From positions 1-64,000 of IMG/VR virus record IMGVR_UViG_3300020056_000025: DNA of 64,000 nucleotides; one strand, 5' to 3'. Both the position numbers and the translations under genes were made by a program. Under the pieces are notes generated by a model. The model searched no databases and had not been told where the DNA came from. It was given only the letters and a program-made list of their open reading frames with translations. The stretch is from a virus. This document shows positions 742-62,930 of the stretch, piece after piece (the first letter of the stretch is position 1; each line of letters starts with the position of its first letter).

Positions 742-749
742 GTGTATAA
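742..749 (+). promoter_or_regulatory. Candidate late promoter box GTGTATAA (copy 1)
   Basis: GTGTATAA lies 29 bases before the ATG at 771 and is one of a family of identical boxes in this window. This copy could also serve as a sigma70 -10 (TATAAA), with TTGCGA at 721-726 and an 18-base spacer, so it is the least specific member of the set. Confidence 0.5.
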
Positions 750-770
750 AGTATGTAAAGGAGAATCAAT

Positions 771-953
771 ATGAATAACAATCAGAATGCCCCTACACAG
801 CTAGGATGTAGTCTTTTTACTCAGGCGACAGCATCTTTACAGTCAGAAATTGAAGACGATTTGCAAATTGAGGACGTTTCTTTGGAAAAAATATTAGGAA
901 AGGTTAATAATGAAAGTAAAACCCCTGAAGACAACAAACAGGATAATTGCTGA
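771..953 (+). CDS. Hypothetical protein (60 aa)
   Basis: No family recognised. The start is well supported by AAAGGAG about 8 bases upstream, and a GTGTATAA box lies 29 bases before the ATG. The product is small, hydrophilic and Asn/Gln/Glu-rich, with no membrane segment. Its last 44 bases overlap the start of the next gene in another frame, which suggests translational coupling. It is the first gene of the rightward block. It could be a minor virion or regulatory protein; nothing in the sequence decides this. Confidence 0.6.
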   Translation: MNNNQNAPTQLGCSLFTQATASLQSEIEDDLQIEDVSLEKILGKVNNESKTPEDNKQDNC

Positions 954-1608
954 GGGATGTGAACTTGTCCCCTATAGCAACTCTCTCAAGCTTACTGGTT
1001 GCGAAATAGTAAACAAATTAATGCTTGAACATTTCAATGATGTTTTGAAATTTAATGAAGATGAAAATTCTTTTGCGTCAGTATTTGAACCTGACTTTTT
1101 CTTTTATTATGATCTTCGTCACTATAAAAAAGATCGAATTTTAGTTAGTGAACTAGGTCTTGGAGAAATTAGAGAGGACGAAGAAAATACTTATATAGAT
1201 CGCAAATTCTGTGTTTATCACAAAACGTCAGATGAAGAAGTGATCCCCTCGCCAGCATTTTACCAAAACCAGACAACATCAAAAGATGAATATATGCACG
1301 TTCAATATCACCCTATTGCTAACGCCTTGCAGCTTTTCTTAGCCCCACACACAGTACCATTTTCAGATATATCTGGCCCCTCAACAGTTCTCATAGAAGA
1401 AAATAGCGTATTAGGAAGAAAGAAAGGTAATATTGAATCTATCAATATAAAAGACTTATTCACTAATTCTAAAAAGCCAACAGTTTTACAAAACAAAGCT
1501 TTACCTAAAAAACCAGCCAAAGGAACAGTAGTTATGGACAGTGCAGACGGTATGGTTAAAGTGTACAATGGAGAAACGTGGAAAACTTTAAAATATGAAG
1601 ATACCTAA
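910..1608 (+). CDS. Hypothetical, possibly virion-associated protein (232 aa)
   Basis: Not assigned to a family with confidence. The start at 910 has AGGAAAGG upstream and lies inside the preceding gene. The C-terminal segment, around GTVVMDSADGMVKVYNGETW, resembles a short beta-hairpin motif (GTVVxDxxxxxxKVYxGxxW) common in phage fibre and virion proteins, which hints that it is structural. The middle is acidic and aromatic-rich. It overlaps the sigma-like gene by 14 bases, so the two are probably co-translated. The virion role is inference from the C-terminal motif only. Confidence 0.65.
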   Translation: MKVKPLKTTNRIIAEGCELVPYSNSLKLTGCEIVNKLMLEHFNDVLKFNEDENSFASVFEPDFFFYYDLRHYKKDRILVSELGLGEIREDEENTYIDRKFCVYHKTSDEEVIPSPAFYQNQTTSKDEYMHVQYHPIANALQLFLAPHTVPFSDISGPSTVLIEENSVLGRKKGNIESINIKDLFTNSKKPTVLQNKALPKKPAKGTVVMDSADGMVKVYNGETWKTLKYEDT

Positions 1609-2086
1609 GAATATGACCGAGGAGGAAACTTTAGATAAAATAAATTTAGTTGTAGACAGGATATCACCCAAGTATACATTCTTTGGTTACGATGTAAATG
1701 ATATAAAACAGGAAGCTTTTATAATATGCGTTGAAGCTTTAGAAAGATATGATCAAAAAAGACCACTAGAGAATTTTCTATCAGTCAATTTATCTAACAG
1801 GTTGAAGAATTTTGTTAGAGACAATTTTGGAAACGCTAAAGATGTTGAGAAGAAAAAAATATCTTGTCCCACGGCAATAACTCACGAATATTCCAGAACC
1901 CTATCTTACCAAGAAGATGTAGACCTAAAATTAGATATGTCTGATATTAGAGAAAAGATAGATAAAGAATTACACTCCAGCTATAGGGCCGACTATTTAA
2001 AGTTTATTAATAATATTACAATACCTAAACCAAGACGAGATAATTTAATACAAGAACTCAAGGATATTGTTAATGAAGACAGGTAG
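1595..2086 (+). CDS. Sigma-70 region 2-like protein, candidate late-transcription sigma factor (T4 gp55-like)
   Basis: A 163-residue protein whose residues about 33-78 read as sigma region 2: a DIKQEAFI segment, then ALERYD, then RPLENFLSVNLSNRLKNFVR. These match the core-binding and -10 recognition helices of sigma70-family proteins. No region 4 (-35 binding) is visible. That size and content match T4 gp55, which recognises only a -10-like late promoter. The start overlaps the previous gene by 14 bases; an alternative ATG lies 18 bases downstream. Identical GTGTATAA boxes lacking -35 elements precede several structural genes, which fits a phage sigma of this kind. Family membership is read from sequence; the promoter specificity is inferred. 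Confidence 0.75.
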   Translation: MKIPKNMTEEETLDKINLVVDRISPKYTFFGYDVNDIKQEAFIICVEALERYDQKRPLENFLSVNLSNRLKNFVRDNFGNAKDVEKKKISCPTAITHEYSRTLSYQEDVDLKLDMSDIREKIDKELHSSYRADYLKFINNITIPKPRRDNLIQELKDIVNEDR

Positions 2087-2858
2087 ACTATCAAAAGAAG
2101 AGAAACGCACTATAGACAAGATAGCAAATAGTCTAACAGTAGATGATATAGCCAAAAAACTAGATAGATCAGTAGACTCTATAGAAAAATACGTTAAAGA
2201 AAATTTACACATTGGCCTAACACCTTCTGAAGCTGCTGCGTACTCACTTGAGGATCGCCCCTACTGGGTTGAGTTAAAGGCCCAGTTCACTAGTGACGAA
2301 CTAGAGTTATTTAAGTACCATTGGTCCCGTATTATTTCACAGTTCAAGGATGACGTATTTCCAACAGAAGAACTACAGGTCGTTGATGTTATTAAGTTAG
2401 AAATACTTATGAACAGATGTCTCAAGGGTAACAAAGAAAACATAGAACAAATAAACACGTATGATCAAATGATTAAGAATGAACGATCAAGAGACAAGGA
2501 TCAACAAGATCATGATTATATAATTAACTTAGAAAGGCAGATTGCTTCGCTTAGGGCGTCTCAAGAGAGTTTGAACCGCGATTACCGCGAATTACAAGCT
2601 AAAAAGTCTAGTATGCTTAGAGAGATGAAGGGTACGAGAGAGCAGCGTATTAAACGACTTGAAGAGAGCAAACAAAGCTTTACTAGTTGGGTTGCGGCGA
2701 TGATGCAAGACCCAGAGCGTATGAAGCGTTATGGAATACAGATGGAAAAAATGAAGGCGGCTATGAGAAAGGAAGAGGAAAGATTATCATCATTTCATAA
2801 ATATGAAGATGGAACAATAGACCAACCATTTTTAACACCAGACACAGTAAAGGACTAA
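2073..2858 (+). CDS. Helix-turn-helix plus coiled-coil protein, possible small terminase subunit
   Basis: The N-terminal 45 residues resemble a helix-turn-helix (a VDDIAKKLDRSVDSIEKYV segment). The central part (about 145-215) is a charged coiled coil rich in Glu, Lys, Arg and Gln. DNA-binding HTH plus an oligomerising coiled coil is the usual plan of phage small terminase subunits, and the large subunit lies about 3.5 kb downstream in the same block. I chose the ATG at 2073 over an upstream TTG because AAGGA lies 8 bases before it. It overlaps the sigma-like gene by 14 bases. A transcription accessory role beside the sigma gene is an alternative. Confidence 0.6.
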   Translation: MKTGRLSKEEKRTIDKIANSLTVDDIAKKLDRSVDSIEKYVKENLHIGLTPSEAAAYSLEDRPYWVELKAQFTSDELELFKYHWSRIISQFKDDVFPTEELQVVDVIKLEILMNRCLKGNKENIEQINTYDQMIKNERSRDKDQQDHDYIINLERQIASLRASQESLNRDYRELQAKKSSMLREMKGTREQRIKRLEESKQSFTSWVAAMMQDPERMKRYGIQMEKMKAAMRKEEERLSSFHKYEDGTIDQPFLTPDTVKD

Positions 2859-2861
2859 TTA

Positions 2862-2969
2862 ATGAACCCAGAATCACTAGTTGTAATTTTACCATGTTGG
2901 AGTGCGGCGATTGGTTTAGAACTATTAGTGGTTGGTTTTTTCTACAACTTAGCTAAGGACAAAAAATGA
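2862..2969 (+). CDS. Tiny single-span membrane peptide (35 aa)
   Basis: A 35-residue frame starting at the ATG at 2862, with AAAGGA 7 bases upstream. The product has one hydrophobic segment of about 23 residues (roughly from LVVILPCW to LLVVGFFYNL) ending in a Lys/Asp-rich tail, so a single-pass membrane peptide is likely. The stop overlaps the start of the dehydratase gene as ATGA. Exact spacing, good ribosome binding site and coupling make it a real gene despite its size. Function is unknown; small phage membrane peptides include lysis modulators and envelope-targeting factors. Confidence 0.65.
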   Translation: MNPESLVVILPCWSAAIGLELLVVGFFYNLAKDKK

Positions 2970-4003
2970 AAGCAATCATAACTGGCATTACGGGACAGGA
3001 TGGAAGTCACCTTGCGGATTTACTTTTAGATAAAGGATATGAAGTTATTGGCATTGCTAGGCGTTGTAGCACAGATAATACACAAAGAATAAAAAATATC
3101 TTATATCACGAAAGATTCAAGTTGGTCGAAGGAGACATCACGGATGTAAGTAGTGTAATTAATATATTCAAAGATAACGAAGATGTTGATGAAGTCTACA
3201 ATCTAGCGGCACAGTCGCATGTAGCAACCTCTTTTAAACAACCAGCTCTAACATGGGATATTACTGGTAAAGGCTGTCTCAATTTATTACAGAGCCTTGT
3301 GGACCTAAATATGAAACACGTTAAGTTTTATCAGGCTTCCTCAAGTGAAATGTTTGGAAGTTCTTATGATGTGGATAAAAATGGAGATAAATACCAAAAT
3401 GAAGACACTAAGTTCATGCCGCAATCACCATACGCCATTGCTAAGTGTGCTGCTCATTATGCCGTTGGTTTGTATCGCGGTGGTTATAATTTACATGCTA
3501 GCTGCGGTATATTATTTAACCACGAAGGTCCAAGAAGAGGAGAGAACTTTGTTACCCAAAAAATCGTAAAATGGATATCTGATTTCACGTATTGGAAAGA
3601 GTCTCATGATAATCCAGTATTATTCTTCAGTGATGATTATATAAGTATTCAAAATGACAAGTTTCCAAAACTAAGACTTGGCAATCTACAATCCTATAGA
3701 GACTGGGGCTATGCTGGCGATTACGTAGAAGCTATGTGGTTAATGCTACAAGAGGAAAACCCAGATGATTACGTAGTTTGCACAGGTAAGACATATACAA
3801 TATCAGAGTTTTTAGATATTTCATTTAATTATGTAGGTATATCAGAATGGGAAAAGTATATAGTAATAGATCCAAAATTTTACAGACCTTCTGAAGTTGA
3901 CTATCTTCGCGGAGATTGTAGTAAAATAAAAAACAAGCTAGGATGGCAACCGAAACATAATTTGGAGGGGTTAATAAAACTTATGTTGGATGAGGAACTT
4001 TAA
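2966..4003 (+). CDS. gmd: GDP-mannose 4,6-dehydratase
   Basis: An extended short-chain dehydrogenase/reductase that converts GDP-mannose to GDP-4-keto-6-deoxymannose, the precursor of GDP-fucose, rhamnose-type and related sugars. The N-terminal GITGQDG gives the GxxGxxG NAD(P) motif at residues 7-13. The catalytic SSE segment is near 126-128, and Tyr156-xxx-Lys160 is the active-site pair in SPYAIAKCAAHY. The NHEGPRRGENFVTQKI segment is characteristic of Gmd. Length (345 aa) is normal for the family. The ATGA overlap with the membrane peptide and 14-base overlap with the next gene place it in a tight operon with a glycosyltransferase. No fucose synthase lies in this window, so the final sugar is unknown. 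Confidence 0.92.
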   Translation: MKAIITGITGQDGSHLADLLLDKGYEVIGIARRCSTDNTQRIKNILYHERFKLVEGDITDVSSVINIFKDNEDVDEVYNLAAQSHVATSFKQPALTWDITGKGCLNLLQSLVDLNMKHVKFYQASSSEMFGSSYDVDKNGDKYQNEDTKFMPQSPYAIAKCAAHYAVGLYRGGYNLHASCGILFNHEGPRRGENFVTQKIVKWISDFTYWKESHDNPVLFFSDDYISIQNDKFPKLRLGNLQSYRDWGYAGDYVEAMWLMLQEENPDDYVVCTGKTYTISEFLDISFNYVGISEWEKYIVIDPKFYRPSEVDYLRGDCSKIKNKLGWQPKHNLEGLIKLMLDEEL

Positions 4004-4238
4004 AGTATTCATAGACATATGTGATATATACTTAGATTTAATAAATTTAGATACTAGGAAATATACCAAACCCTTCATGATTATATTCATAGAAGCAGAC
4101 GACCCAGACGGAGCATGTTACTTCGCAATATCAAGAATAATGAACGAAGTCTTAGACTCTGGTAAAACTATTAAAAATAGAATATTATGTAGAAAAATAA
4201 AAAGAAAAATAAGAATAGAAAGGATAGAATCTTTATGA
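3990..4238 (+). CDS. Hypothetical protein between dehydratase and glycosyltransferase (82 aa)
   Basis: No family recognised. It overlaps the dehydratase gene by 14 bases and the glycosyltransferase gene by 4 (ATGA), so it is translationally embedded between two sugar genes. The C-terminal third is strongly basic, ending in a Lys/Arg/Ile-rich helix. A DDPDGACYFAIS segment in the middle has Asp residues that could bind metal, but I cannot assign it. The ribosome binding site is weak, consistent with coupled translation. Confidence 0.6.
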   Translation: MRNFKVFIDICDIYLDLINLDTRKYTKPFMIIFIEADDPDGACYFAISRIMNEVLDSGKTIKNRILCRKIKRKIRIERIESL

Positions 4239-5038
4239 GAACCCCACAAGAACAGTTTATTGATAGTGTTAATAAGTTTAACTTAGATAATAAGTATAAT
4301 TTTTCCGATAAGATTTTATGGGAAGATGAAGCTGATTGTTTAATGTATAACGCTGAGGAGGAAAAGAAATACATTAATTTTGCCGTATGGGACAATTCTC
4401 TAGTAGACTTACGTGACGACGTTTGCGTTTTTCAGTGCAGTGTTGTAAAATCACTTCGAAAAAAAAATCAATTTTCTTTACCTTATTCTTTTGAAAGATT
4501 TAATAAAAAATTTAAGACAATAAAAGATAAAGAAAAACCATCTGTTGGATTTTGTGGCAACTATATAGCGCACCCTCATAGAAAAGAAGCTTTGTTTTCT
4601 CTTAAGTTAGACAAAAGATTGAATACAAATTTTATCTGGAGGCTAATGTTTAATGGTGAGTTCTCAAAGGATGATAGGGAGCTAAACAGAGAAGAGTATA
4701 CAGAAAATATGCAAGAAAACGCATTTATTTTTTGCGCTAGGGGTTCTGGAAATTTTTCTATTAGATTTTTTGAAACATTATCATGCGGAAGAATACCAGC
4801 TCTTCTTGATACAGATTGTTTACTCCCTTTTGATGATGTTATAGACTATAGTGAATTTTCTGTTATTTCAGATACTCCAGAAGATCTTGCTAATCAGATA
4901 CTTTCTAAATTCAACGACGGCTCATACGTTGAGATGCAACAAAAGGCTTATGATATATATCAAAATTATTTCCATTTGGATATTGTTGGAAAAAGAATAG
5001 TAGAATATCTAGATAGAAACTATGAAAAGAAATTATAA
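4235..5038 (+). CDS. Exostosin-like (GT47-type) glycosyltransferase
   Basis: The C-terminal half matches the exostosin fold: a YTENMQENAFIFCARGSGN segment, then SIRFFETLSCGRIPAL, then LPFDDVIDYSEFSV. This is the family's S-x-F-x-xxRG...R-xxE-xxxxG-xIP...PF pattern, in the sugar-nucleotide-binding half of the enzyme. PSVGFCGN near residue 105 would be the start of the donor-side domain. At 267 residues it is compact compared with eukaryotic exostosins but typical of phage versions. No signal peptide, so it acts in the host cytoplasm. Its acceptor is unknown: virion proteins, DNA or host glycan are all possible. It follows the dehydratase gene directly. Confidence 0.8.
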   Translation: MRTPQEQFIDSVNKFNLDNKYNFSDKILWEDEADCLMYNAEEEKKYINFAVWDNSLVDLRDDVCVFQCSVVKSLRKKNQFSLPYSFERFNKKFKTIKDKEKPSVGFCGNYIAHPHRKEALFSLKLDKRLNTNFIWRLMFNGEFSKDDRELNREEYTENMQENAFIFCARGSGNFSIRFFETLSCGRIPALLDTDCLLPFDDVIDYSEFSVISDTPEDLANQILSKFNDGSYVEMQQKAYDIYQNYFHLDIVGKRIVEYLDRNYEKKL

Positions 5039-5285: not shown

Positions 5286-5775
5286 ACAAGCTCCTGAGTT
5301 TACAGTTATAAAAGACACAAGGGAGCAGGATGGATATTATTTTAGCAAATTTAATACCTGCGCGGGTATGATAGATCAGAAGCTTGATACTGGAGATTAC
5401 TCGATACAGGGACTAGAGGACAAGATATGCGTAGAGAGAAAAGGTTGCGTTGAAGAGCTAGCTATAAACCTTGGTCAAAAGAAACACGCTTTCTTGAACG
5501 AAATAGGAAGAATGGAACCCTTCCCTCATAAGTACTTAGTTTTAGAATTTTCTCTTGAAGATTTAATCAAGTTCCCTAAAGATACAAGAATACCAGTAAA
5601 GAATAAAGCATCGCTTAAAATTACTGGTAAATATATGTTAAAATGCTTAATAGAGTTTGAGTTATATAATGACGTACATGTACTCTTCTGTGGAGACAAA
5701 TATACAGCATTCCTTGCTGTTAGCAGCATTTTCAAGCGGATTAACGAAATGTATACTATCGGGAGAAAAACATAA
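5272..5775 (+). CDS. ERCC4/XPF-type nuclease domain protein
   Basis: A 167-residue protein matching the XPF/ERCC4 nuclease fold. Asp15-Thr-Arg-Glu (DTREQ), GDY at 41-43 and the catalytic Glu55-Arg-Lys (VERKG) are the expected metal-binding and catalytic elements. It has no attached helicase or HhH domain, so it is a minimal nuclease that may cut branched or flap DNA. In phages such proteins are candidate resolvases that clear junctions before packaging. It sits between the HNH gene and the ClpP-like/terminase genes. The cellular target is inferred. Confidence 0.8.
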   Translation: MAKYKQAPEFTVIKDTREQDGYYFSKFNTCAGMIDQKLDTGDYSIQGLEDKICVERKGCVEELAINLGQKKHAFLNEIGRMEPFPHKYLVLEFSLEDLIKFPKDTRIPVKNKASLKITGKYMLKCLIEFELYNDVHVLFCGDKYTAFLAVSSIFKRINEMYTIGRKT

Positions 5776-5776
5776 G

Positions 5777-6421
5777 ATGAACAACAACGATAAAGACCTC
5801 CTTTATGATTTGCATAACTATGGCGCTAATTTAGACACAAGAGAGATCTTTTTGCATAATTACTATACTTCTGGAGATGATGAAAATCCGGGAGTAGAGT
5901 ACAAGATGTCAAACACTTTCTTAAAAAACTTAAGAGCTTTAGAAATAAAGTCAGAAAAGCCAATCACTATACACATGCAAAGCGTTGGCGGTGAATGGTC
6001 CGATGGCATGGCTATTTATGACGCTATTACAATGTCTAAATGTCATATCACAATAGTTGCATATGGTCAGGCTGAGTCTATGAGTAGTATTATATTCCAA
6101 GCCGCTGACTTAAGATTAATAACACCAAATACATACTTCATGTCCCATTATGGAAGCAGTTCTGCTGGAGGCCATTATCTGAATGTACAGAACTGGATTA
6201 AATACGAAAAATACATATGTGATATTATGCTTAATATTTATTCGTCACAATGTGTAAATGGCAAGTATTTTTTAGAAAGATACGGTAAGGGCTGTGAAAC
6301 TAAAGTTAAAAATTTCTTAAACACAAAATTAAAGTCTGGTGATTGGTACTTAAACGCAGAAGATGCGGTTTACTACGGATTTGCCGACAAGGTTATAAGT
6401 TCATGGCAAAATCTAAACTAA
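5777..6421 (+). CDS. ClpP-like serine protease (S14 family)
   Basis: A 214-residue ClpP-fold protein. The oxyanion strand SVGGEWSDGMAIYDAI (about 69-84) corresponds to SPGG...AIYD, the nucleophile is Ser101 in GQAESM, and the His is His124 in FMSHYG. A C-terminal DWYLNAEDAVYYGFADKV segment aligns with the ClpP AEEAxxYGLxD region. The Asp of the triad is not clear: the usual position seems to hold a non-acidic residue, with Asp189 nearby. I chose the ATG at 5777, just after the previous stop, because an upstream reading runs through the nuclease gene in another frame. ClpP-like phage proteins often process prohead components, but a second protease candidate lies at 10461. Confidence 0.87.
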   Translation: MNNNDKDLLYDLHNYGANLDTREIFLHNYYTSGDDENPGVEYKMSNTFLKNLRALEIKSEKPITIHMQSVGGEWSDGMAIYDAITMSKCHITIVAYGQAESMSSIIFQAADLRLITPNTYFMSHYGSSSAGGHYLNVQNWIKYEKYICDIMLNIYSSQCVNGKYFLERYGKGCETKVKNFLNTKLKSGDWYLNAEDAVYYGFADKVISSWQNLN

Positions 6422-8382
6422 AAAGAATTGATGAAGCTTGGCTTGGATTGGACGCGGTAGATTCTGATTTATTTAACCCAATGTCAATACTGAATGTGTC
6501 TGACGATGACTTTAATTTAAAGTTAGCTTGGCTAATGACTAGACCAGACTATCTTTCGTTTATAACTAGCGAAATACTTAATATACAACTGCTTCCTTCT
6601 CAGTCTTTATTTTTGAAAGAGATATGGAATCGAAAGTTTCCAATGCTAATTGCTAGTCGAGGGTTTGGTAAATCCTTCATGCTTTCTCTCTACGCTGTAC
6701 TTAGGGCGCTTATATTTCCTCGCAGAAAGGTTGTTGTCGTTGGTGCTGCATTTAGACAGTCTAAGGTCTTGTTTGAGTATATGGAAACTATATGGCGCAA
6801 TTCCCCGATGCTTAGAGATGTATGTGATAGCGATAGTGGGCCAAGAAGAGATACAGACAGATGCACCCTCCGGTTAAATGATAGTACTGTCACTTGTTTA
6901 CCTTTGGGTGACGGACAAAAAATTAGAGGACAAAGAGCTAATGATATTATTGCTGATGAATTTGCTTCGATCCCAAGGGAAATATTTGAAAATGTTGTGG
7001 CTGGCTTTGCAGCTGTTAGTTCTGACCCTGTTGAGAATGTAAAAAGGCTAGCTGCTCAAAAAAAAGCAGATGAATTAGGAATTACTTTAGAGTTGGAGGA
7101 AAAAGAAGTAAAGAAAGATAATCAAATTGTACTATCTGGCACTGCTTATTATGATTTTAATCATTTTGCTTCTTACTGGAAAAAGTGGAAGTCTATAATT
7201 AGAAGCCAAGGAGATAGAGCAAGACTAAGAGAAATCTTTGGAGAAGATCCACCTGAAAATTTTGATTGGAGCCAGTACTCTATTATTAGAATGCCTTACG
7301 AACTTTTACCAAAAGGGTTTATGGATTCGGATCAAGTAGCCCGATCTAAAGCGACTGTTCACGCTGGGATATACCAAATGGAGTATGGAGCTTGTTTTAC
7401 TAGAGATAGTCAAGGTTTTTTCAAGCGGTCTTTAATAGAATCTTGTGTAGCTAACCAGTCGGGAGATATAAAAGATAAACAAAATCAACCAATATCATTT
7501 GAAGCATCTTTAATTGGAGATAAAAATAAAAAATACATATTTGGAGTTGACCCAGCCTCTGAAGTAGATAATTTCAGCATAGTAATACTTGAGGTTTATC
7601 CAGAACACAGAAGAATTGTATATTGTTGGACCACGACTCGTTCAGAACATAAAGAAAAAGTAAAAAGAGGATATGTCTCGGAAACAGACTTTTATGCATA
7701 TTGCGCTAGAAAAATACGAGACCTTATGAAACTTTTTCCATGCTTGCATATAGCTATGGACGCTCAGGGTGGGGGCGTGGCCGTAATGGAGTCTTTGCAC
7801 GATAAAGATAAAATACAAGAAGGAGAAGTTGCTATATGGCCTACTATAGACGATGATAAACCAAAAGATACAGACGATGAAAGGGGATTGCATATCCTTG
7901 AGATGTGTCAATTTGCTAAATATGATTGGTTGGCTGAAGCTAATCATGGAATGAGAAAAGACTTTGAAGACAAGGCTTTACTATTTCCTTCATTTGACTC
8001 ACTTACTCTTTCCATATCAGAACACGAAGATAACACCAAAGGTAGAATGTTTGATACCATAGAGGAATGCGTTTTAGACATAGAGGAACTTAAAGATGAA
8101 TTATCTATGATACAAATGTCGCAAACATCTGCTGGTCGCGACAGGTGGGATACGCCACAGGTTGTCGTCGGAACGGGAAAGAAAAGCAAAATGAGAAAAG
8201 ATAGATATTCAGCTTTACTTATGGCTAATATGGCCGCTAGAATTATACAAAGAACACCAGAGCAAGCGGCCTATGAATTTTATGGCGGCTTTGCGACTGG
8301 CGGTGGACACAAAGAACAAAAAAATGAAAAAATGTATAATGGTCCCAGTTGGTTCTCTGACAATATGAAAGATGTGTATTAA
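6403..8382 (+). CDS. terL: Terminase large subunit
   Basis: The packaging motor ATPase and nuclease (659 aa). Walker A is SRGFGKS at residues 85-91 and Walker B is DIIADEF at 181-187, with the catalytic Glu. The C-terminal RNase H-like nuclease starts at YIFGVDPAS (Asp383) and continues through HIAMDAQGGG (Asp453), with further acidic residues toward KDRYSALL near the end. I chose the ATG at 6403, 19 bases inside the ClpP-like gene, because the protein reads well from MAKSKLK and AAGG lies upstream; a longer in-frame start at 6343 would be buried in the previous gene. The portal gene follows, the standard packaging order. Confidence 0.93.
   Translation: MAKSKLKRIDEAWLGLDAVDSDLFNPMSILNVSDDDFNLKLAWLMTRPDYLSFITSEILNIQLLPSQSLFLKEIWNRKFPMLIASRGFGKSFMLSLYAVLRALIFPRRKVVVVGAAFRQSKVLFEYMETIWRNSPMLRDVCDSDSGPRRDTDRCTLRLNDSTVTCLPLGDGQKIRGQRANDIIADEFASIPREIFENVVAGFAAVSSDPVENVKRLAAQKKADELGITLELEEKEVKKDNQIVLSGTAYYDFNHFASYWKKWKSIIRSQGDRARLREIFGEDPPENFDWSQYSIIRMPYELLPKGFMDSDQVARSKATVHAGIYQMEYGACFTRDSQGFFKRSLIESCVANQSGDIKDKQNQPISFEASLIGDKNKKYIFGVDPASEVDNFSIVILEVYPEHRRIVYCWTTTRSEHKEKVKRGYVSETDFYAYCARKIRDLMKLFPCLHIAMDAQGGGVAVMESLHDKDKIQEGEVAIWPTIDDDKPKDTDDERGLHILEMCQFAKYDWLAEANHGMRKDFEDKALLFPSFDSLTLSISEHEDNTKGRMFDTIEECVLDIEELKDELSMIQMSQTSAGRDRWDTPQVVVGTGKKSKMRKDRYSALLMANMAARIIQRTPEQAAYEFYGGFATGGGHKEQKNEKMYNGPSWFSDNMKDVY
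8374..8381 (+). promoter_or_regulatory. Imperfect late-promoter-like box before the portal gene
   Basis: GTGTATTA, one mismatch from the GTGTATAA box, lies 49 bases before the portal ATG and overlaps the terminase stop. The spacing fits the other boxes, but the mismatch and coding overlap make it uncertain. Confidence 0.3.
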
Positions 8383-8422
8383 TTAGTACATTCCAATTAT
8401 CAATCCAATTGAGGTAATTTCA

Positions 8423-10414: not shown

Positions 10415-10434
10415 ATCTGTTTTTTCTCTTTTTT

Positions 10435-10442
10435 GTGTATAA
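10435..10442 (+). promoter_or_regulatory. Candidate late promoter box GTGTATAA (copy 2)
   Basis: TTTTGTGTATAATCC in the short gap after the portal gene, 26 bases before the ATG at 10461. No -35-like hexamer lies 16-18 bases upstream; that stretch is T-rich. It is nearly identical to the copy at 62923 over about 12 bases. Confidence 0.6.
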
Positions 10443-10460
10443 TCCTTGAGAGAGGCATAA

Positions 10461-11972: not shown

Positions 11973-12425
11973 ATGGCTCTAAAATCAGATAGAAATGAAT
12001 TACAGACCGACATTAGCTTTTTCTATAACGCAGCTGCAACAACCAGAGGTTGTTTAGTTGCTCATGGTGCTACTGCCGGTACTGGTGCAACTATGGATGA
12101 TGGCGCAAATCTTTGCGTTAAGTCAACCAGCGCAGCACCTCTAGGCATCCTCCTTAATGATGTCGTAGATAAAGATCTTACTCGTACTCATTTGAATCAA
12201 CACAAAGATGAAGTACAAAAGGGTGGCAAGGTTACTATCCTCCGTAAAGGATATGTGGTAACTAATAATATCACCAATACCTCAGACGTAGCGGCTGGCG
12301 AAACAGCTTATCGTTGTGATGATGTTGCTGGCAACGTTGCCTCGTCAGGCACTGTTGCTGTAGGTAGCTTCCTTTCTGGGGTTGATGCTGATGGTTACGC
12401 AAAAGTCGAAGTCAACCTTCCCTGA
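11973..12425 (+). CDS. Putative capsid decoration/stabilisation protein (150 aa)
   Basis: A small Gly/Ala/Val/Thr-rich, beta-predicted protein with AAAGGAG upstream, placed between the scaffold and major capsid genes. Decoration proteins of many phages occupy this slot and have this size. The core (APLGILLNDVV, then GGKVTILRKGYVVTNN) resembles the compact beta barrel of capsid decoration proteins, but I cannot name a family. The strong ribosome binding site, like that of the capsid gene, suggests high expression. The function is mainly from context. Confidence 0.6.
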   Translation: MALKSDRNELQTDISFFYNAAATTRGCLVAHGATAGTGATMDDGANLCVKSTSAAPLGILLNDVVDKDLTRTHLNQHKDEVQKGGKVTILRKGYVVTNNITNTSDVAAGETAYRCDDVAGNVASSGTVAVGSFLSGVDADGYAKVEVNLP

Positions 12426-12459
12426 ACTTAATATATACAAAATAAAGGAGAAAATTAAT

Positions 12460-13467
12460 ATGCCTACAAATGAAAGACCTAGTGATGAATTTATCGCTCT
12501 CCTACGTAAGTCAGGTGATAGCGATGTCAACGTAGCTCAAGCTGCACAGCGAGAATTCGCAAAAGCCCTTGAGTTACCACTTCGCAAGGGTGTTCTCGTT
12601 GGGAACATTCTTGGTAATATTTTTGAAACCATCAATGTAGAAGCTGGTTCTACAACTGAATTTCCTTTGGATCTTATCAGTCCCGGCCTTGAGGGTGAGC
12701 ATGTTGCTTACACCAATCCCGGTCATGGTAGAATTCCAGAGCGTTCGGTTGAAGGCGATTACGTCATGATTCCAACTTACAGTATTGCATCTTCGGTTGA
12801 CTATCTCCTTCGCTACGCCCGAGAGGCGCGTTGGGATATTGTTGGTCGCGCCATGCAAGTCATGGAAGCTGGTTTCGTAAAGAAGATGAACGACGACGGC
12901 TGGCATACAATTCTTGCAGCTGGCGTTGATCGTAATATTCTTGTTTATGACGGCGATGCAACAGCTGGCTTGTTTAGCAAGAGGCTCGTTTCTCTTATGC
13001 AGACAGTTATGCGTCGTAATTCTGGTGGCAATAGCGCATCTGTTGGTCGTGGTCGGCTAACCGATCTTTATGTTTCGCCAGAAGCTTTAGAAGATGTTCG
13101 CAATTGGGGACTTGATCAAGTTGATGAAGTGACCCGTCGTGAGATTTACACTGCTGCTGAAGGTGGCGCTCCAATTACGCGTATCTTTGGTGTCAATCTT
13201 CACGATCTTGACGAACTTGGAGAAGGTCAAGAATATCAGAGCTTCTTTACTACTGACCTTTCTGGCAACGTTCAGGGTGATGACACTGAGCTTGTTGTCG
13301 GATTAGACCAGTCAAGTAACGATAGCTTTGTGATGCCCGTTAAGGAGCAGTTACAGGTCTTTGAAGACCCAACTCTCCACAGACAGCAGAGAGCTGGTTA
13401 TTACGGCTTTGCAGAGCTTGGTTTTGGTGTTCTAGACAACCGTAGAGTTATCTTGGGATCATTCTAA
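12460..13467 (+). CDS. Major capsid protein
   Basis: A 335-residue protein in the major capsid position, after portal, protease/scaffold and decoration genes and before a strong terminator. I chose the ATG at 12460, with AAAGGAG 9 bases upstream, and rejected an in-frame ATG at 12382 that overlaps the previous gene. A short helical N-terminal region is followed by a mixed alpha/beta core consistent with an HK97-type fold, and a C-terminal RQQRAGYYGFAELGFGVLDN segment resembles the end of known phage capsid proteins. Codon use looks more GC-rich and regular than in the neighbours, as expected of a very highly expressed gene. Confidence 0.85.
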   Translation: MPTNERPSDEFIALLRKSGDSDVNVAQAAQREFAKALELPLRKGVLVGNILGNIFETINVEAGSTTEFPLDLISPGLEGEHVAYTNPGHGRIPERSVEGDYVMIPTYSIASSVDYLLRYAREARWDIVGRAMQVMEAGFVKKMNDDGWHTILAAGVDRNILVYDGDATAGLFSKRLVSLMQTVMRRNSGGNSASVGRGRLTDLYVSPEALEDVRNWGLDQVDEVTRREIYTAAEGGAPITRIFGVNLHDLDELGEGQEYQSFFTTDLSGNVQGDDTELVVGLDQSSNDSFVMPVKEQLQVFEDPTLHRQQRAGYYGFAELGFGVLDNRRVILGSF

Positions 13468-13491: not shown

Positions 13492-13525
13492 AAGCCACCC
13501 TCATTGACTTGGGGGTGGCTTTTTT
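13492..13525 (+). terminator. Rho-independent terminator after the major capsid gene
   Basis: A 9-base stem (AAGCCACCC with GGGTGGCTT) and a 12-base loop, followed by a T run (13520-13525). It ends the head-gene transcript 25 bases after the capsid stop. A GTGTATAT box follows immediately for the next unit. Confidence 0.88.
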
Positions 13526-13533
13526 GTGTATAT
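13526..13533 (+). promoter_or_regulatory. Candidate late promoter box (GTGTATAT, copy 3)
   Basis: GTGTATAT directly after the terminator T run, 52 bases before the ATG at 13578. It differs from the consensus box only at the last base. A promoter here would restart transcription for the fibre cassette. Confidence 0.5.
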
Positions 13534-13577: not shown

Positions 13578-14330
13578 ATGGCTGCAATTTCAGACTATCT
13601 TGAAAAAGAACTTTTGAATTTTATTTTCAGAGGATCAACATCTTTTCTTGGTCATACTTCTATACCTAGCAATCCCGCTTTTGGAGACCAAAACATACCT
13701 TGGGGAAAACCTAGTAATATTTCCATAGCTCTATTAACCAGTGTTCCAAAAGAAAATCAAACTGGAGCCACAATGGATGAGGTTAGCACCACTTTTACAA
13801 ACGAGGGTGGAACAGAAGTAAGCACTTTGTATGACAGAGTAAGTCTTGGAAGCCCAAGCGAGGTGGGTAACTCCAAGTGGTCAGATGTTGGTGTCGATAA
13901 TGCTTCTGCTTATTATGTGTACACGGAAGTTCCTGCCGATTCTGGATATTGGTATCCACTTTATTTAAATGAAAACTCAGTTACTGGAACTGTTGATGGG
14001 CCAATTGAATTTACTGAAGATTTTCCGGGTGTTCAATTTTATGCTCCTGCAAACACAGTTCAAAAAAGACAACAGGTTAATCCAGACCCACAAGAAATTA
14101 TTTATAAGCTTTATGATGGGAATGGTTTTATTCAAAACCAGACAACTATATCATTTCCCCAAGCGGGCCAAGGTGGCTGGGGGACAATTAGTGCTGTAGC
14201 TATAATGGACAGTCCAACTGTTGGCGAGGGAAACATACTTTTTTACTCTCAACTCGAAACACCAAAAAGTGTTGGGCGCGGTGACATTGTTCAATTTATA
14301 CCATCATCCTTAGAGCTTAGTGTTAAGTAA
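13578..14330 (+). CDS. Phage structural protein of the Gp80-like tail-fibre family
   Basis: The N terminus (MAAISDYLEKELLNFIFRG) and C terminus (WGTISAVAIMDS, then ILFYSQLETPKSVGRGDIVQ) match a widespread small virion protein family that starts with SDYLE and ends with a PKTVxxGDxxxxPxGxL-type segment, often annotated as Gp80-like tail fibre. At 250 residues it is longer than most members, owing to about 80 extra residues in the middle (about 100-175). It has a near-perfect ribosome binding site (AGGAGGTAACAA). It opens the adhesin cassette after the capsid terminator. Its place on the particle is unknown; its gene position next to capsid genes would allow a capsid or neck location. Confidence 0.65.
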   Translation: MAAISDYLEKELLNFIFRGSTSFLGHTSIPSNPAFGDQNIPWGKPSNISIALLTSVPKENQTGATMDEVSTTFTNEGGTEVSTLYDRVSLGSPSEVGNSKWSDVGVDNASAYYVYTEVPADSGYWYPLYLNENSVTGTVDGPIEFTEDFPGVQFYAPANTVQKRQQVNPDPQEIIYKLYDGNGFIQNQTTISFPQAGQGGWGTISAVAIMDSPTVGEGNILFYSQLETPKSVGRGDIVQFIPSSLELSVK

Positions 14331-14332
14331 GC

Positions 14333-40465: not shown

Positions 40466-40470
40466 ATCAA

Positions 40471-49400: not shown

Positions 49401-52400
49401 GCCTTCTGATGAAGATATTTCTAAGCTAAAAGACTTTTTAAGCCTTGGAAATAAAAAGGTTGTTATTACATATGGTCAGGAACCAAATAAACCAGAAGAA
49501 AGTTTAGAGCTTACACCTTATATGATAAGGGCAGCAAATGTCGCTAGAAATATTTGCGAAAAATTAGGCGTTACTATGCGTCCAAATTTCTTGGTCGGAA
49601 AAAACAGATACGCTTTTAAAGAAGACTATAATAGCAATGCTGTGGGTAAATATTCAGAATTGTATATTGTATCTGAATATGCTCAAGAAGGAATACCGCG
49701 CCTAGAGGGTGACTATGCTAAATTTACTACTAATGCCCCACCGTTTACTAGGTATGGCTTAGGAACAACATTAGATCATAACATTATACCAATACAAAAA
49801 AATAACAGCTCAATATTGCTTAGACTTGAAGAAACAGTTTCTGATATACAAACTGTTTCTTTAGGAAAACCAAAATTAAACACTGGTATTACCAAAGTAA
49901 CATTTGACGTTCCAGACCATTCAGAAGAACTTTCTCACGATCTTGGTAGGCAGGCTGAAGATGATTTATATCTATTTAGAATGTACTTTGATGTTATCTC
50001 ACTAACAGAACAGGAAAACCAAAACATTAAAGTTTATATAGAAAATGCTCAGTCTTCCATAAATTCTGATCAAGAAGGTCAAGCGCTACCAATTAGTAAT
50101 GCTAAAGGAACATTAGTTCAAATACAAGACGGAGACGATCTTGGTAATATTTACAATTCTAATATATCCGCTGGAGCTAATATTACCCTTCAAAAGTCTT
50201 CTTCCTTGAAGACCTACACTTTAGATTTTCAAGCGGCGAGTGGAACCCAAATAAACCTGTACTTTACTGGCTATAAATATTGGCCAGAACGTGATTTGGT
50301 TCCAAATCCAGAACAAGTAAGAACTACGAGGCTTGTTGCAGTTTCTGGTGTTAGAGTTCCTGTAGAAACTACGGTTTCTCCTACATATCCAGTTTATGAT
50401 GTAAGAGTAGTTGAAACTCCTGCTACACCGGGATACTCTTATTATCAAGATGTGGACAGGCAAATTAGTACAAACAGTTCTAAATACTGTGCAGAGAATA
50501 ATTCTGAAATATGTTCAGCTGAACCTCCAATTGGCTATGGGTCCGAAGGTTCTGATTTAGATATTGCTGACGGACCAGTGGTGGTCGCACAACAGTTTTA
50601 TGATCAAGCAGGTTTTTATTCTGGACATAATAGATCTAGGGTTACTGTTATTAGTGATGCAAGTTTAATTCAGGGTCCAAACATTTTAACACAAGAAGGA
50701 AATACTGTTACAGATTTAGCTAGCTTTTTAGCTTCTTTATATCCAACTACGAATGAGTTTTTTCAGGACGAATACTATGGTGTTCAGCAAAGCACTTTCT
50801 ACCCAAATGCTTACAAATTAATTTCTCCCGAAAGATCTAGTCCAAGTAGGCTAGTAAACGCATTTCCTCAAAACTCTGGATTAAATGCTAGATTTGGTTC
50901 ATATCCAAGTTCTGGATTTCCTGTTAGTTCTTATGCTGATGACGAGGGTAAGAAAAACATTAACATTCCTTTGGGTCAAGATCAAGCTGCGATACCTTTT
51001 GACCTTATGATTGGTTTATTAGCAGCTGATGATCCCGGAACTTTTAGGCAGCTTCCAGAACCTCCAAGATTGCCACCAAGCTACTGGTTTTCGGTTTTTC
51101 CTTATACATATTTAGGATATACCCAACAAGAATATGAACAAAAGTGGTACACTGACGAATTTTTACAATATCAAGCTTATTGGTCTTCTACTTCAAAAAT
51201 ACAAGATGTTTATCAAGGCCAGACCTACGTGGATGCGGGCTTGTCGGAAAGAATTCCACCAATAATGAGAGCTACTGGTTTTGATCACCTTGACTTGGAT
51301 GTGTTTAATTCTGGATATCCCGGAGATTTGTTTGGTTATAAAGTATGCATACATAATGATAAGATTTATGCTGGATCTCCATTTACTCCCTATAGCTCTG
51401 AGACTATTCTTTCTTGGGATGAAATTTTAGACAGTGGATACATGCATGGCGTTGAGATTGGTTACAACGGCGGAGCTGGAGCTGTTTATCAAATTGAAAA
51501 AGTTGGAAACGTTGGCAGTGGTGTTGGATCAATTCAAGGTTCTTCAAAAGAAACGTCTGGATTACCTTGGCAAACAGTCAAAAAAATTAGACCACAAGAA
51601 ATCGGAGTTGGATTTTCTAATTTAACCGCGAACGAAGCATCTGGAATTTTTGGTAATCACTTATATACTGATGAGTTTTTACAAAACAATGCTTTTGTTT
51701 CAGATATGTTTGGTTACAATATTACACTAGACGCTGATTTAATGGCGATATCAGCTCCCGGTCATAATTTTGAAGTTTTATTCCAAGAAAATTCTGGACA
51801 ATTTGTTAATAAAGAATTTAATGAGCAATTTAATATTACTACTCGAAACCAATATGATTTAGCAATTCAATCCAATAGAAATAACTACCCGAATAGCGGT
51901 GAAACTATAATAAATAATGGAGCTGTGTTTACCTATGAAAATAAAATTAATGACTGGGGATCTAAGAGTAAAGACTGGACACCCATACAGAAACTAACTC
52001 CAGAGCAAGTTACCTTTAGCTCAGGTAATGCTTACTTTGGACAAGCCATAAGCATGTTTAGATCAAACAGATCTGACGCAGATTACATACTAGCTATAGG
52101 TTCTAAAAATTATACCACTGATACTATGCAAAAAGCTGGATCTGTTTATACCAATGATGCAATGTTGAGAAAATTAAGACCGGCCTTTTCTCATCCAGAT
52201 ACATATCTAGCTGGAAAAGTTTTTGGAAACTATAAAGACAAAAGTGAATATATTGAATTTAACTTTAAAAATGGAAATATCCCAGATGATAAACATTCTT
52301 TCGAGGGTAGAGTTTTTGCCAATGAGCAGGGAGAAATATTTATTGAAGCCTCTGGTCAGGACATGGTTGACAGAGGATATGTAAATCACAGACCGTTTAT

Positions 52401-52704
52401 TAAGCAGATTCGTGGGGCTTACGAATTTGGTGTAAAAAATACAGAAAGAATCAATTTATACTCTGAAGGTAAACCATTTTCTTCGTCTGGCGCGCTCAAC
52501 CTTACCAGCAAAGCTCCAGACGTGGGAATTGTGTATAATAATGTAGGACTTTACAGCATATCCAATTTAGATAGTTCTGGAATTTTGCAATTATATGCTA
52601 GTGGAATTAATATGAATAATATACATGAAGATATAAATTTTGTATGTAGTGGTATTGTTTTTATGGACCCTCAGTCTATAGCCCTTTATGGATATTCAAT
52701 ATAA
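40471..52704 (+). CDS. Giant multidomain tail protein (4077 aa) with FG-GAP propeller-like and LamG-like modules
   Basis: One uninterrupted 4077-residue frame (about 450 kDa) between the tape measure and tail-tip genes. Seen in order: a basic N terminus; beta-rich N-terminal third; a laminin-G/concanavalin-like domain (about 875-1120, LLGYFDFNKTVGSYVIDS at its start); an LYxSG-type repeat region (about 1395-1630); FG-GAP-like motifs near residues 1808, 1923, 2232, 2373, 3620, 3747 and 3855; a MIDAS-like DDSAS near 2091; two related alpha/beta domains (2495-2573 and 2967-3048); and a second LYxSG region at the C terminus (3991-4077). Position implies a tail-tip or side-fibre protein; size and domain mix suggest adhesion. 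The stop overlaps the next ATG by one base. Confidence 0.85.
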   Translation: MSSRCSNNDSLKVRIKSETKLRNHIIKKVKLKAKPTVTSKFKSFASLQIIGYARGGGSSGSFSSNNFGSSNFGAESLSSGPILPKIMRGVFDISFDYVKEFIPKPPRSLPSQLIDITSVEIKKGGWDAIPDSVYEPASSNNHTYTYINSPQFNHRPIARFKTSFNFKSSLGIPLINLNSKFKSSSNFSSKFFEKIKGHVAKLNTFDFSNPYLQRLYPELDEPVTSDVTFVDKIQNSSGIYSSINEGVFTGSVMQNQGTGYLMSDDSNTYITPSSISTDNVSSYRCVVTTPNITPTESLLFIRATTPLFTNETDRPPSYDIYNILFLDPSGNKIAKYKDVTVGGESDYYKSSISNIDKDWFTIVTEPSEFYAGTGVSRIDYPILGEPSGYTLSFDVKSNCKFEPFDDGFNEGFEEGCDISRLGLDLSSHYFPANSVNNHLGISSTPLSTRTQGYRLNPNNSIRFSALEIVNAGLSSGIIHDTVLNLHITPQPTGQRLERILSPTKVLTTSYTNNIYPTGIVNTWVSSADADGLRFDNTSDEHAGVLVDRLVNRFVDGWITLEDINPIASSGKLQLVYKHSKPKSIKQPTGGAFLFGQKYGGSDFGTAKIEIVPADDSFYVIEEIKLRISAKKASGTDDYPIDVVGYSDDGVLAITSQVGGFLQNEQIGSGAVPLHSGFLPTDDLGISTNSISDKYAYFQEKIIKHAAGDHYMVSTSPVVNSTSFETYDIPLKIYNDSVELGRSKDYSMSSYFEQLYLDIYPIPSGASIQRADLIIKYKPAGALPLSTAGYLSREFYSREGRLYPDAKRGTDVITNSNSEPLSLIENIPHGYTHIEDTLKTNYSRRWRGNTGNVDSSAFDPVSFDFSFERSVLDQPFLLGYFDFNKTVGSYVIDSNNYGSTSGVFNSDLQSSLIRNIGLRFNSDSLFNANVRNYKTIDWCGSGHELEGKILDAYDNALRVSGVNGYLDFGNTPTSSGFSVYTRFSPDSSISGVGYNGWNDGVIFGKWDSGQNLEYALGYENEYLCVYARSEDSSVVKVVDSIPYTSYQYPLSTLVTYNQNHDNKLRLYAYNEISSGIPVLRGESSSFIMHSGNSSLSFGYSSGSGVGINAFIHEIGISHVNASGSTNLVEGVGNRSIQEESVADFFASQAIDFWRGSDNLWNYVDEKTDDWKLGSFKYCSFSPDFNVMSLRIGKDFIYHNFYNHGQTYDNLTDLSLPDSTKASGLAYHTQIENDMLRVQLSGREDRFHAVAPRISKNFPRSYLFAEDSLLVNTIMQHSCDQDIVWPDGRRGVKIIVSLYTPSRESEYTPTKNYGLVSRDVHYVTPEDCWLKLRSKFTLENYNDTSSEPWSYFDKTISKKEFTENYFSRDVDEMFVQYDLAYPSGTYEESKIIIHSLDISLDNILLNKDNENERLNVYTSGEPYRDSSLNLSWAEGSVRGVIAAQGFGSSNYGVVLGDSITLNDLSLGFYTSGNIYSNIYTSGINLYASGYTYDSDILNCYSVGSETHSGLLNISSLGGYANENNLNKPFCLYSDAFYANADHLSESLNVYNLGVNTKGEFASNINETMHSFILGGLGATSFPISISETFNISIATPQFASINFQDSINLYTVVRKVEDTIFDSVNMYTHHEARIVKEENELESFLWNGKNFGFEIYVDDNQYASIPANDEIRGVNTMCYGDCDSLAGIPCTETDIVTHDTLWYSPECVDGGVIRPYRVYSNPDVNAFGTNQPYDKQYYGIRKFTSLIPNAPYTIKITGQSGGGEVLEVPREVSEWNYGKSETPSGVLSPEVNYSGLQILESLSNRDSNNNFGKSVKVVGDLLAVGVPHADSTVGVDDLLNSDTASRTVNSHGKIYVYRRNPAPSGHDWSNQDDQAQWSVEQEIVLPTGWRRDYFTNTVASFTDDTGEFLPFTGSVRSWFNSGEGRELGYSLDATKVGDKEIIVAGGPGCEWTRTFAPIAATPVSIGLIVFNNELQSNAKPWQNILEELKNRDLLYRYFSDPPVEFDIKIMILEPHLGSNISFQPSDEFATPKPDFVSKHVTTRHWERSTTSQEWIDADAVILQEMKNIFHETFPITPGALHSGIPPLLGIFIDDSASLGTDVVGYYTNGFKGAVNKFIDYYNSYSYNNGLSDQYGNPSEGYTQVTVRQREADWVDQSIECLKDITDINKIIENNKTNLIANNLGTFNVNAQEFNNPPPSGGAVYIFEKENQDSLFELKQEIRSPATYTDNASDRFGHDVAISKNGNIIVIGSPYSENAVQIFEKNNSHEKELQTKIHQRIPAFLNAEYNKEVQNQTFGESFNLYEDYLEQKDIVNDFALTESLFNRMSESLKLSFYKSYDISPYKKIKDLTYSDIHKDMGGVWSEFYSKYIPTSRIGYSVDTNDDGTLVAIGCPTDSLGERDNTITWFRHDGGQTQDWQWQNYVNAGCVRVLESRKYYPHTNKVVEFYKYGNLHEDLATEEHKYLYHDNIKQMFESKHLDYSRTSFSEDVDIPEDAGMAFIITPSIDASSDEVVQNIKNWLAKGDRHLVLVGDDPRYEKNGAFQKSTAIINELLEKLDINMRIYPARNEREALLTDTNIELNVQQSFKPAKSSSILGYAGSKLKSYGVGDIRHYNKDKLDLYNCTLPFGTKLTSNGELTENYNDPFVILEKIDAVSDGSEPPRKKIYREMHDKCHLPIKHEGDLRAEYQDQCAFINLGGSPVWLNYKRNLPFAYGDHITADWGCVGPGDVILSKEENLRDSHAPVPMLAAYENVNLKFDVPEIPASQFLQRYISSYKDGYQHKFGRVPYSGVSFSWTANESNYTSIENNINQITSESLFFDPPQTASSDGFIDSIMQAKATTPLREVEQDINAGYFNVVNEEPYLPHEVDNSHVVLMATTFTERKDILLSSQNDANLVFYKNLLTYRNSINSQGFYCKVAQLGSFTNRSSYTDGYFKSDIAFQMYGLGVDMRDLNVDIDDISLEHLEYNVVWIANTDQMPSDEDISKLKDFLSLGNKKVVITYGQEPNKPEESLELTPYMIRAANVARNICEKLGVTMRPNFLVGKNRYAFKEDYNSNAVGKYSELYIVSEYAQEGIPRLEGDYAKFTTNAPPFTRYGLGTTLDHNIIPIQKNNSSILLRLEETVSDIQTVSLGKPKLNTGITKVTFDVPDHSEELSHDLGRQAEDDLYLFRMYFDVISLTEQENQNIKVYIENAQSSINSDQEGQALPISNAKGTLVQIQDGDDLGNIYNSNISAGANITLQKSSSLKTYTLDFQAASGTQINLYFTGYKYWPERDLVPNPEQVRTTRLVAVSGVRVPVETTVSPTYPVYDVRVVETPATPGYSYYQDVDRQISTNSSKYCAENNSEICSAEPPIGYGSEGSDLDIADGPVVVAQQFYDQAGFYSGHNRSRVTVISDASLIQGPNILTQEGNTVTDLASFLASLYPTTNEFFQDEYYGVQQSTFYPNAYKLISPERSSPSRLVNAFPQNSGLNARFGSYPSSGFPVSSYADDEGKKNINIPLGQDQAAIPFDLMIGLLAADDPGTFRQLPEPPRLPPSYWFSVFPYTYLGYTQQEYEQKWYTDEFLQYQAYWSSTSKIQDVYQGQTYVDAGLSERIPPIMRATGFDHLDLDVFNSGYPGDLFGYKVCIHNDKIYAGSPFTPYSSETILSWDEILDSGYMHGVEIGYNGGAGAVYQIEKVGNVGSGVGSIQGSSKETSGLPWQTVKKIRPQEIGVGFSNLTANEASGIFGNHLYTDEFLQNNAFVSDMFGYNITLDADLMAISAPGHNFEVLFQENSGQFVNKEFNEQFNITTRNQYDLAIQSNRNNYPNSGETIINNGAVFTYENKINDWGSKSKDWTPIQKLTPEQVTFSSGNAYFGQAISMFRSNRSDADYILAIGSKNYTTDTMQKAGSVYTNDAMLRKLRPAFSHPDTYLAGKVFGNYKDKSEYIEFNFKNGNIPDDKHSFEGRVFANEQGEIFIEASGQDMVDRGYVNHRPFIKQIRGAYEFGVKNTERINLYSEGKPFSSSGALNLTSKAPDVGIVYNNVGLYSISNLDSSGILQLYASGINMNNIHEDINFVCSGIVFMDPQSIALYGYSI

Positions 52705-54455: not shown

Positions 54456-54463
54456 AAAATTTT

Positions 54464-55153: not shown

Positions 55154-55159
55154 TTTGAA

Positions 55160-59434: not shown

Positions 59435-59459
59435 ATAATATTTTATAAGGAATAAAAAT

Positions 59460-62400: not shown

Positions 62401-62918
62401 CCAATTTTTATTTTACAAGCAGTATCCCTAGTGAAAAGAATAAAAATGTAAGTATTAAATTTGTTGAAAATGAAGTCACAATAAACGACAACACAAAAAA
62501 ATCTTATCAAGAAAGGGGACAAGGTTGGCTTCCAGAAAGTTTGCCTTTTGAAGCAAGTATTGAAGATAGCAATGGTGTTAGAATAGTCATTAAGTTTACA
62601 CAACTCAGAACACACCAACTAATTAAAATTGATGCTGGCCCACAACCTAGAACTCCTCTCACTAGAGTATCAATGAAAAGTGGTTCTGGACAAGATTGGG
62701 TTTATGGAGATTATTCGACTACTCTACAGGTAGAAGGTAATAAGACTGGAATAGGTGAGAATCCAAACGCTTTTCAGAGCAGGGATTTGGAACTATATGG
62801 GGGCCAATACGAAGTTCTTGTTTATGTACATAACGACGTTGCTCTTTGTTGGCATGAAATACCAGAAATTACATCTGGTAGTAATTTAGCTCAATATATA
62901 ACCGTAAAATTCAGGTAA
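59460..62918 (+). CDS. Large tail-tip or tail-fibre structural protein (1152 aa)
   Basis: Not recognised. A 1152-residue predominantly beta protein (AAGGAATAAAA before the ATG). An N-terminal segment (RTNHYLHVPEFYRFGMSYID) is aromatic; the middle includes long Gly/Asn-rich loops; the C-terminal 350 residues have several beta-sandwich-like stretches (GATVDISYTNDDNETITG, then GGQYEVLVYVHNDVALCWHE). It ends the tail-tip gene set; a late-promoter box and a last virion gene follow. Probably part of the tail tip or a side fibre. Confidence 0.55.
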   Translation: MSRGNYFVSLRTNHYLHVPEFYRFGMSYIDGYCYNVLRNTSNPIAQRAKEITSHVDVNIYDNQSLFAAWIRDHLGVESFSWTYFNSTGDIHTDTINTWDTSNVNIGTLINYVESTTYEQRGFDLENQNAQAKKLLQIQSSLEGYAVGTSSKNHDVRIYFPQPNANRTDRTAATKGSSLISSVPRLASGKKFHLDATDNAEVGTYVTSNELSEDDTAATVAGTLKLRWNKNLNVWDAGQTFLAVLLSDVDGADITNVGFDIGNIEAVSKDQFYGSEAAFGMFDFTTGIAMPMGLESSHPQSFGPNILKCKDSTKLETIRVVNRSRTNYSNGEIVIIHQIDGENIIGGKFTEDVVEQRPPQPGRWNFTKFFANSDEYFRLRYGSNSGGSDQGRPSINPHGLVMLLFQKYYNEKTGTIKSLNIFEDTELPIDSSFINNFELFEYYQSKIEDLEPTIGRINIYDDPSGEGNVAQQRVGQEEVPIFFGPMFPDGVNLKVGNYNKMHTPGERVYPWTYDAHNAVRKINRKQYYNGVGTGYTASGIISVADPFRVQFSLCSCELLGAADSTSNQLNENLQSHKDRFGPDTNLEVRKFQKTLNNVFTTYNNKETSVLQLTKRDNFPDSFTSPAAERRGTDGHDASARVNTNFNLPQSLNYQGLTNSADITQLIPYDAYIKYIPLNTPIGAPTVFGGDVGPESLENPYMGSNAVGITSSRLRLNQGSGGSFQLTAEVNQNIGMKGRYFGGGMQQGGILPTVIGAFLHFATDTRRDREINGRVALWGSSRDYIDSFGTAACHVQVWDAWPDALTTWIPQYMCSLHFNPSPASDEGSVIKALNFANAEKDSDGNWAKDKEPEDFEINVPALCEVSYQVPTYGATVDISYTNDDNETITGTYPAYGVGQDGDAVGAGNEIFQSTVLRPSTQWLWATHRHGKLVTQYGYRYYQTVIGLSQFNVSLVDYDDDTTPSDFQTGEENIYSVGTGDRKANFYFTSSIPSEKNKNVSIKFVENEVTINDNTKKSYQERGQGWLPESLPFEASIEDSNGVRIVIKFTQLRTHQLIKIDAGPQPRTPLTRVSMKSGSGQDWVYGDYSTTLQVEGNKTGIGENPNAFQSRDLELYGGQYEVLVYVHNDVALCWHEIPEITSGSNLAQYITVKFR

Positions 62919-62922
62919 TTTT

Positions 62923-62930
62923 GTGTATAA
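62923..62930 (+). promoter_or_regulatory. Candidate late promoter box GTGTATAA (copy 6)
   Basis: TTTTGTGTATAATAC, almost identical to the copy before 10461, 43 bases before the ATG at 62966. No -35-like hexamer upstream. Gives the last virion gene its own start. Confidence 0.6.

Follow-up and report, generated by a model that had tools for sequence, protein, structure and literature searches.

What the short box recurring ahead of late genes in this viral DNA does, and what reads it, is the question raised by the locus. The window (the whole stretch of DNA analysed) is 64 kb out of a 68,130-bp IMG/VR virus record, and an earlier note on it proposed that the 8-mer GTGTATAA is a phage-specific late promoter. 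Sequence comparison makes it likely that the boxes are single-element late promoters, to which a phage-encoded region 2 sigma factor would direct the host core RNA polymerase. The proposal of the note is supported, at the level of sequence, by the enrichment of the box, by boxed orthologous late operons in 12 modules, by a box placed after a conserved terminator and by the region 2 sigma that the phage encodes.

Late module and box copies in the window

The window corresponds to a phage late module, with nearly all of its genes on the + strand. A near match was not found in an annotated phage collection, the terminase large subunit (TerL, 6343..8382, +) is about 25-27% identical at best to those of cultured phages (Microcystis phage MaeS and Bacillus phage Slash being nearest by TerL), and the related contigs reach 166 kb. 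The first boxed operon is opened by a 61-aa ORF (771-953, +) and contains, as its third ORF, the gene (1595..2086, +) for a sigma factor of 163 aa that matches sigma-70 region 2. The adjacent gene (2073..2858, +) encodes a helix-turn-helix plus coiled-coil protein, probably the small terminase, with a weak match to the HK97 small terminase; a gp33-like coactivator was considered for this protein, and structure and fold search weakly favour the small terminase. The prohead protease (5657..6421, +), a cement-like protein (11973-12425), the probable major capsid protein (12382..13467, +; weak matches to phrog_2522 and to the Bacillus phage G major head protein, 21%) and a fiber/head protein (13578-14330) were assigned. 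Two neighbouring giant genes within 33950-52704 encode proteins of 2171 and 4077 aa with no assigned function, and the counterpart of the 4077-aa gene looks split into two ORFs in some relatives. An exostosin GT47-like gene (4235-5038) is absent from 11/11 other late modules compared.

On the + strand, exact copies of GTGTATAA form P1 (742..749, 29 bp before the 61-aa ORF), P3 (10435..10442, 26 bp before gene 10461), P5 (25353..25360, 59 bp before gene 25412), P6 (30602..30609, 68 bp before gene 30670) and P9 (62923..62930, 43 bp before gene 62966). P4 (GTGTATAT, 13526..13533, +) lies 52 bp before gene 13578, and P2 (8374..8381, +), the variant GTGTATTA, occupies the last TerL codons, GTG TAT TAA, 49 bp before gene 8423. 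These seven sites had been reported at the same coordinates and at 26-68 bp before start codons, and both statements are correct. The count of five exact copies was incomplete: all five are present, and two unlisted ones, at 52531 (+) and 44358 (-), bring the total to seven. The former is P8 (52531..52538, +), which falls on the codons GTG TAT AAT in the last part of the 4077-aa gene, with gene 52704 following 173 bp downstream; the latter, antisense in a gene and missing from relatives, is probably due to chance. GTGTATAT at 10389 and the coding near-match or copy at 43076 (+) are not conserved in relatives and were treated as chance. At a further position, P7 (33500..33510, +, inside gene 33032), the box of the relatives is degraded to ATTTATAA in the window.

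Chance occurrence had been put at two copies per strand, which was too high: shuffles give about 2.5 on both strands together. Seven exact copies in the window are only mildly unusual (reached in 2/100 shuffles). The suggested intergenic enrichment is borne out: the roughly 1.3 kb of non-coding DNA hold five copies on the + strand, with a Poisson P ~1e-10 that combines shuffle rates with a gene list drawn up by hand.

Immediately upstream of the start of gene 8423 the window also carries two TCCAATT repeats (ATTCCAATTATCAATCCAATTGAGG, 8385-8420). They are strongly conserved in relatives, are among the most enriched intergenic elements and are possibly a leader or operator.

Enrichment and conserved positions in related phages

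Related loci were collected from IMG/VR, 80 via the TerL gene and a further 62 via the sigma gene; gene calls were mechanical (simple, ORF-based), and the loci are related, hence not statistically independent. Counted on the gene strand of the TerL set, GTGTATAA has 51 copies in the intergenic DNA (33 kb) and 23 in the coding DNA (848 kb), far from the equal frequencies by which the note would have given up its reading. Several coding copies are themselves at conserved promoter positions. When all intergenic 8-mers of the TerL and sigma sets were ranked without prior choice, TGTGTATA came out on top (78 sites, 66-fold). The exact core GTGTATA is 37-fold enriched, while among its 21 one-base neighbours the next, GTGTACA, reaches 5.8-fold and the others are lower. 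The motif consists of a T-rich tract followed by TTTTGTGTATA(A/T)T, GTGTATA being followed by A or T and then mostly by T. The lack of a -35 element, also noticed before, is confirmed by zero information at the -35 positions of 92 dereplicated upstream sites, collected with the GTGTATA core fixed. A description of the GTGTATA motif was not found in the literature searched.

We compared box positions across 12 related late modules, the window counted among them. Nine box positions, P1 to P9, are shared across these divergent modules, and boxes precede the orthologs of genes 771, 10461, 13578, 25412, 30670 and 62966 and almost no other gene. The P1 place is boxed in 12/12 modules (in one of them as GTGTATTA), P2 in 9/12, P5 in 10/11 and P6 in about 10/11; P9 is GTGTATA in eight modules and GTGTATTA in one, and P7 is GTGTATA in 9/11, having been lost in the window and in relative G011. 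Upstream of the gene 10461 orthologs (P3), GTGTATA was detected in 57/62 distinct sequences, and four of the five remaining carry GTGTATTA. Since some relatives also carry GTGTATTA in place of the standard box at positions other than P2, it counts as an accepted form; the copy at 8374 was rightly called a variant. No box was detected upstream of TerL (0/106) or of the sigma gene itself (0/61). Enrichment, strand and positional conservation together rule out chance or coding bias as the source of the boxes.

The capsid-protein operon is followed by an intrinsic terminator (13492..13521, +) with a 12-bp stem and a T tract that runs into P4. The box is found upstream of 22/23 orthologs of gene 13578, and the order of terminator hairpin and then box is also found in 22/23. 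Since the P4 box starts at the T-tract end of this conserved terminator, a new transcript must begin there.

Two boxes of the window lie within codons. In 9/10 modules P8 is GTGTATA at the equal place, 174-189 bp short of where the giant gene ends, and in the tenth it is GTGTATTA; its flanking sequence has diverged although the box is conserved. P2 is carried by the TerL C-terminus, V-Y-stop, where GTG codes the valine in 111/119 cases (172 distinct TerL genes); at 12 other conserved TerL valines the GTG share has a median of 7% and a maximum of 18%, a codon count that rules out protein conservation alone. Judged by codon use, nucleotide-level selection acts within codons at the boxes.

The boxes had been described as starts of structural transcription units. 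They do mostly precede late operons, but the first unit also has regulatory and packaging genes, and one large relative (G004) has boxes before a minority of non-structural genes. G004 has about nine intergenic boxes beyond its virion-gene block, upstream of genes for thioredoxin, HNH-type and lipid-desaturase-like proteins, and the regulon is therefore not purely structural.

A candidate sigma factor and the competing explanations

The 163-aa sigma factor very probably reads the GTGTATA box, as its sequence, predicted fold and distribution suggest. All aligned sigma homologs (45/45) match Pfam Sigma70_r2 (PF04542) at E<0.01, the window protein itself at E 2.8e-4, below the curated cut-off. 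In the AlphaFold model (mean pLDDT 80), residues 4-79 align to region 2 structures, complexes with -10 DNA included, at Z 8-9.5 and rmsd 2.4-3.0; a Foldseek search with the model gave no E below 0.001. The window sigma thus has the region 2 sequence and fold of the sigma-70 family. For region 4, a Pfam or PHROG match was not found, and alignments of the C-terminal helices had a large rmsd; the C-terminal ~70 residues, without a confident assignment, might conceivably hold a diverged region 4. The missing -35 element would be explained by a sigma in which only region 2 is recognisable.

The region 2 sigma is encoded in 6/6 large relatives and is the sole sigma found in five of them; the sixth, G006, has one more sigma match, a weak one. 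Within clades B and C of this sigma (about 40-50% identity), the top intergenic 8-mer is again TGTGTATA, and intergenic GTGTATAA is also present with the two most distant homologs (32% identity). GTGTATA enrichment was not found in MaeS, Slash and T4, taken as controls without this sigma; Slash encodes other sigma genes. The link between sigma and box is a co-occurrence inside one phage lineage, not independent covariation.

Host-type promoters were detected on the other strand of these phages. The late block of G004 (166 kb) and its replication genes (ribonucleotide reductase, UvsX-like, DnaB-like, DNA polymerase) are on opposite strands, and intergenic TTGACA-16/17-TATAAT promoters lie on the replication side in 17/18 cases in G004 and 12/13 in G014. 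The window has a sigma-70-type promoter, TTGACA-17-TATACT (455..483, -), which faces leftward genes, unlike the late boxes. The G004 DNA polymerase is found as two ORFs that match one profile in consecutive sections (L145:13611-17470), which suggests a split gene or an insertion. Dispersed intergenic inverted-repeat-like elements, TAAGGACTTACG...GCGGCCCGCC...CGTAAGTCCTTA, were observed outside the late module of relatives (L307:5421-5500, L261, L150) and not in the window. Contigs with related capsid proteins (L193-L196) are binned in MAGs of SAR202, Alphaproteobacteria, Flavobacteriales and Chitinophagia; the TTGACA/TATAAT promoters of these phages presumably speak against Bacteroidota as host.

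It is unlikely that the boxes are host housekeeping sigma-70 promoters of the extended -10 type (TGnTATAAT), which need no -35 element. TATA(A/T)T, with T commonest at the last position and TG just upstream, would agree with such promoters, but the TG abuts TATA, so that the TGn spacing is missed by one base, and the preceding G is fixed as well. Moreover, sigma-70 -10 elements are tolerant, whereas here one-base variants of the seven-base core lose most of the enrichment, and the same phages have the separate TTGACA-16/17-TATAAT promoters on their early strand. We give similarly little credence to late promoters read by another phage factor, either an activator, for example the helix-turn-helix protein (2073-2858), or a phage RNA polymerase. 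That protein is a conserved neighbour of the sigma gene and weakly matches a 'D5-like regulator' profile, yet it resembles the small terminase more, and the TATA part of the box is a -10-like element, the kind of sequence read by sigma region 2. A single-subunit polymerase was not found in the six large relatives, in a search without positive control (with PF00940 and PF02916 the controls gave no match).

The idea that the boxes act in the RNA, as 5' leader elements for processing or translation, agrees with the location of most copies 15-60 bp upstream of start codons. It is nevertheless very improbable: for the copies inside coding sequence the next gene is 173 to about 440 bp away, one box begins at a terminator end, where the transcript has to start anew, and a leader sequence common to all boxes was not found downstream of them.

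We therefore return to the region 2 sigma reading, in which the early genes would be transcribed from host sigma-70 promoters and the first sigma would be supplied by read-through or from a host-type promoter. The sigma, with region 2 and without a recognisable region 4, would bind the host core RNA polymerase and would by itself recognise and melt the box, the TATA(A/T)T part being at the -10 position with no -35, and the predicted late transcripts would start about 6-8 bp downstream. As the sigma gene is in the first boxed operon, the sigma, once made, would amplify its own synthesis. The eight boxes of the window would split the late module into operons, two of them overlapping coding sequence (at the TerL stop and the giant gene end).

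Somewhat less firmly, we favour the broader view that a separate late-sigma lineage (region 2 plus an unassigned ~70-residue tail) controls a large uncultured phage family via a near-invariant 7-base core, and that in-gene promoters fix codons, e.g. that of the penultimate TerL valine. The analysis offers a testable sigma-promoter pair for phages without a close cultured relative, recurring in hundreds of IMG/VR contigs, and would make late operons callable from sequence alone. Strong base specificity makes the pairing of a small sigma and a single box promising for orthogonal expression, and the system suits the question of how region 2 alone defines a promoter, while the codon-embedded boxes are a case of a promoter constraining protein-coding sequence.

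Comparison with known phage late sigmas

Phage 7-11 gp47 is a late sigma with region 4, which uses the bipartite promoter GTAAtg-(16)-aCTA (PMC8948821). The likeness lies in a phage-encoded late sigma, conserved promoter positions before structural genes and a proposed positive feedback on the sigma gene; the bipartite promoter differs from the single element here.

T4 gp55 reads late promoters TATAAATA and needs the coupling proteins gp33 and gp45 (PMC1524935). It is likewise a small sigma, essentially region 2, with only a short -10-like element and a strand-separated late module, but the box here differs from TATAAATA. The latter shows no enrichment in clades B and C of the sigma and is not among the top 8-mers in the clade of the window, while the same count applied to the T4 late region recovered it (10 intergenic copies in 3.4 kb). 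An hhalign comparison of the sigma with gp55 gave Prob 8% and E 0.004 over 47 columns, and the gp45 clamp (PF02916) was not found in the six relatives, in a search without positive control.

The phiEco32 gp36 sigma lacks region 4 and uses the single-element middle/late promoter tAATGTAtA, with starts 6-8 bp downstream (PMC8948821). It shares with the present system a single element without -35 before structural operons, host-type early promoters and the string TGTATA. The box here, TTGTGTATA, departs from the tAATGTAtA consensus, phiEco32 belongs to a phage family that is unrelated as far as tested, and hhalign of the A1 sigma profile with gp36 gave a weak alignment over region 2 (Prob 1%, E 0.044). 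As membership in the gp36 or gp55 family is not demonstrable and the box differs, the likeness would be one of working rather than of membership, and the best reading is that the window sigma works like phiEco32 gp36 or T4 gp55. The GTGTATA/sigma set is clearly a further example of an already known type of phage late-gene control.
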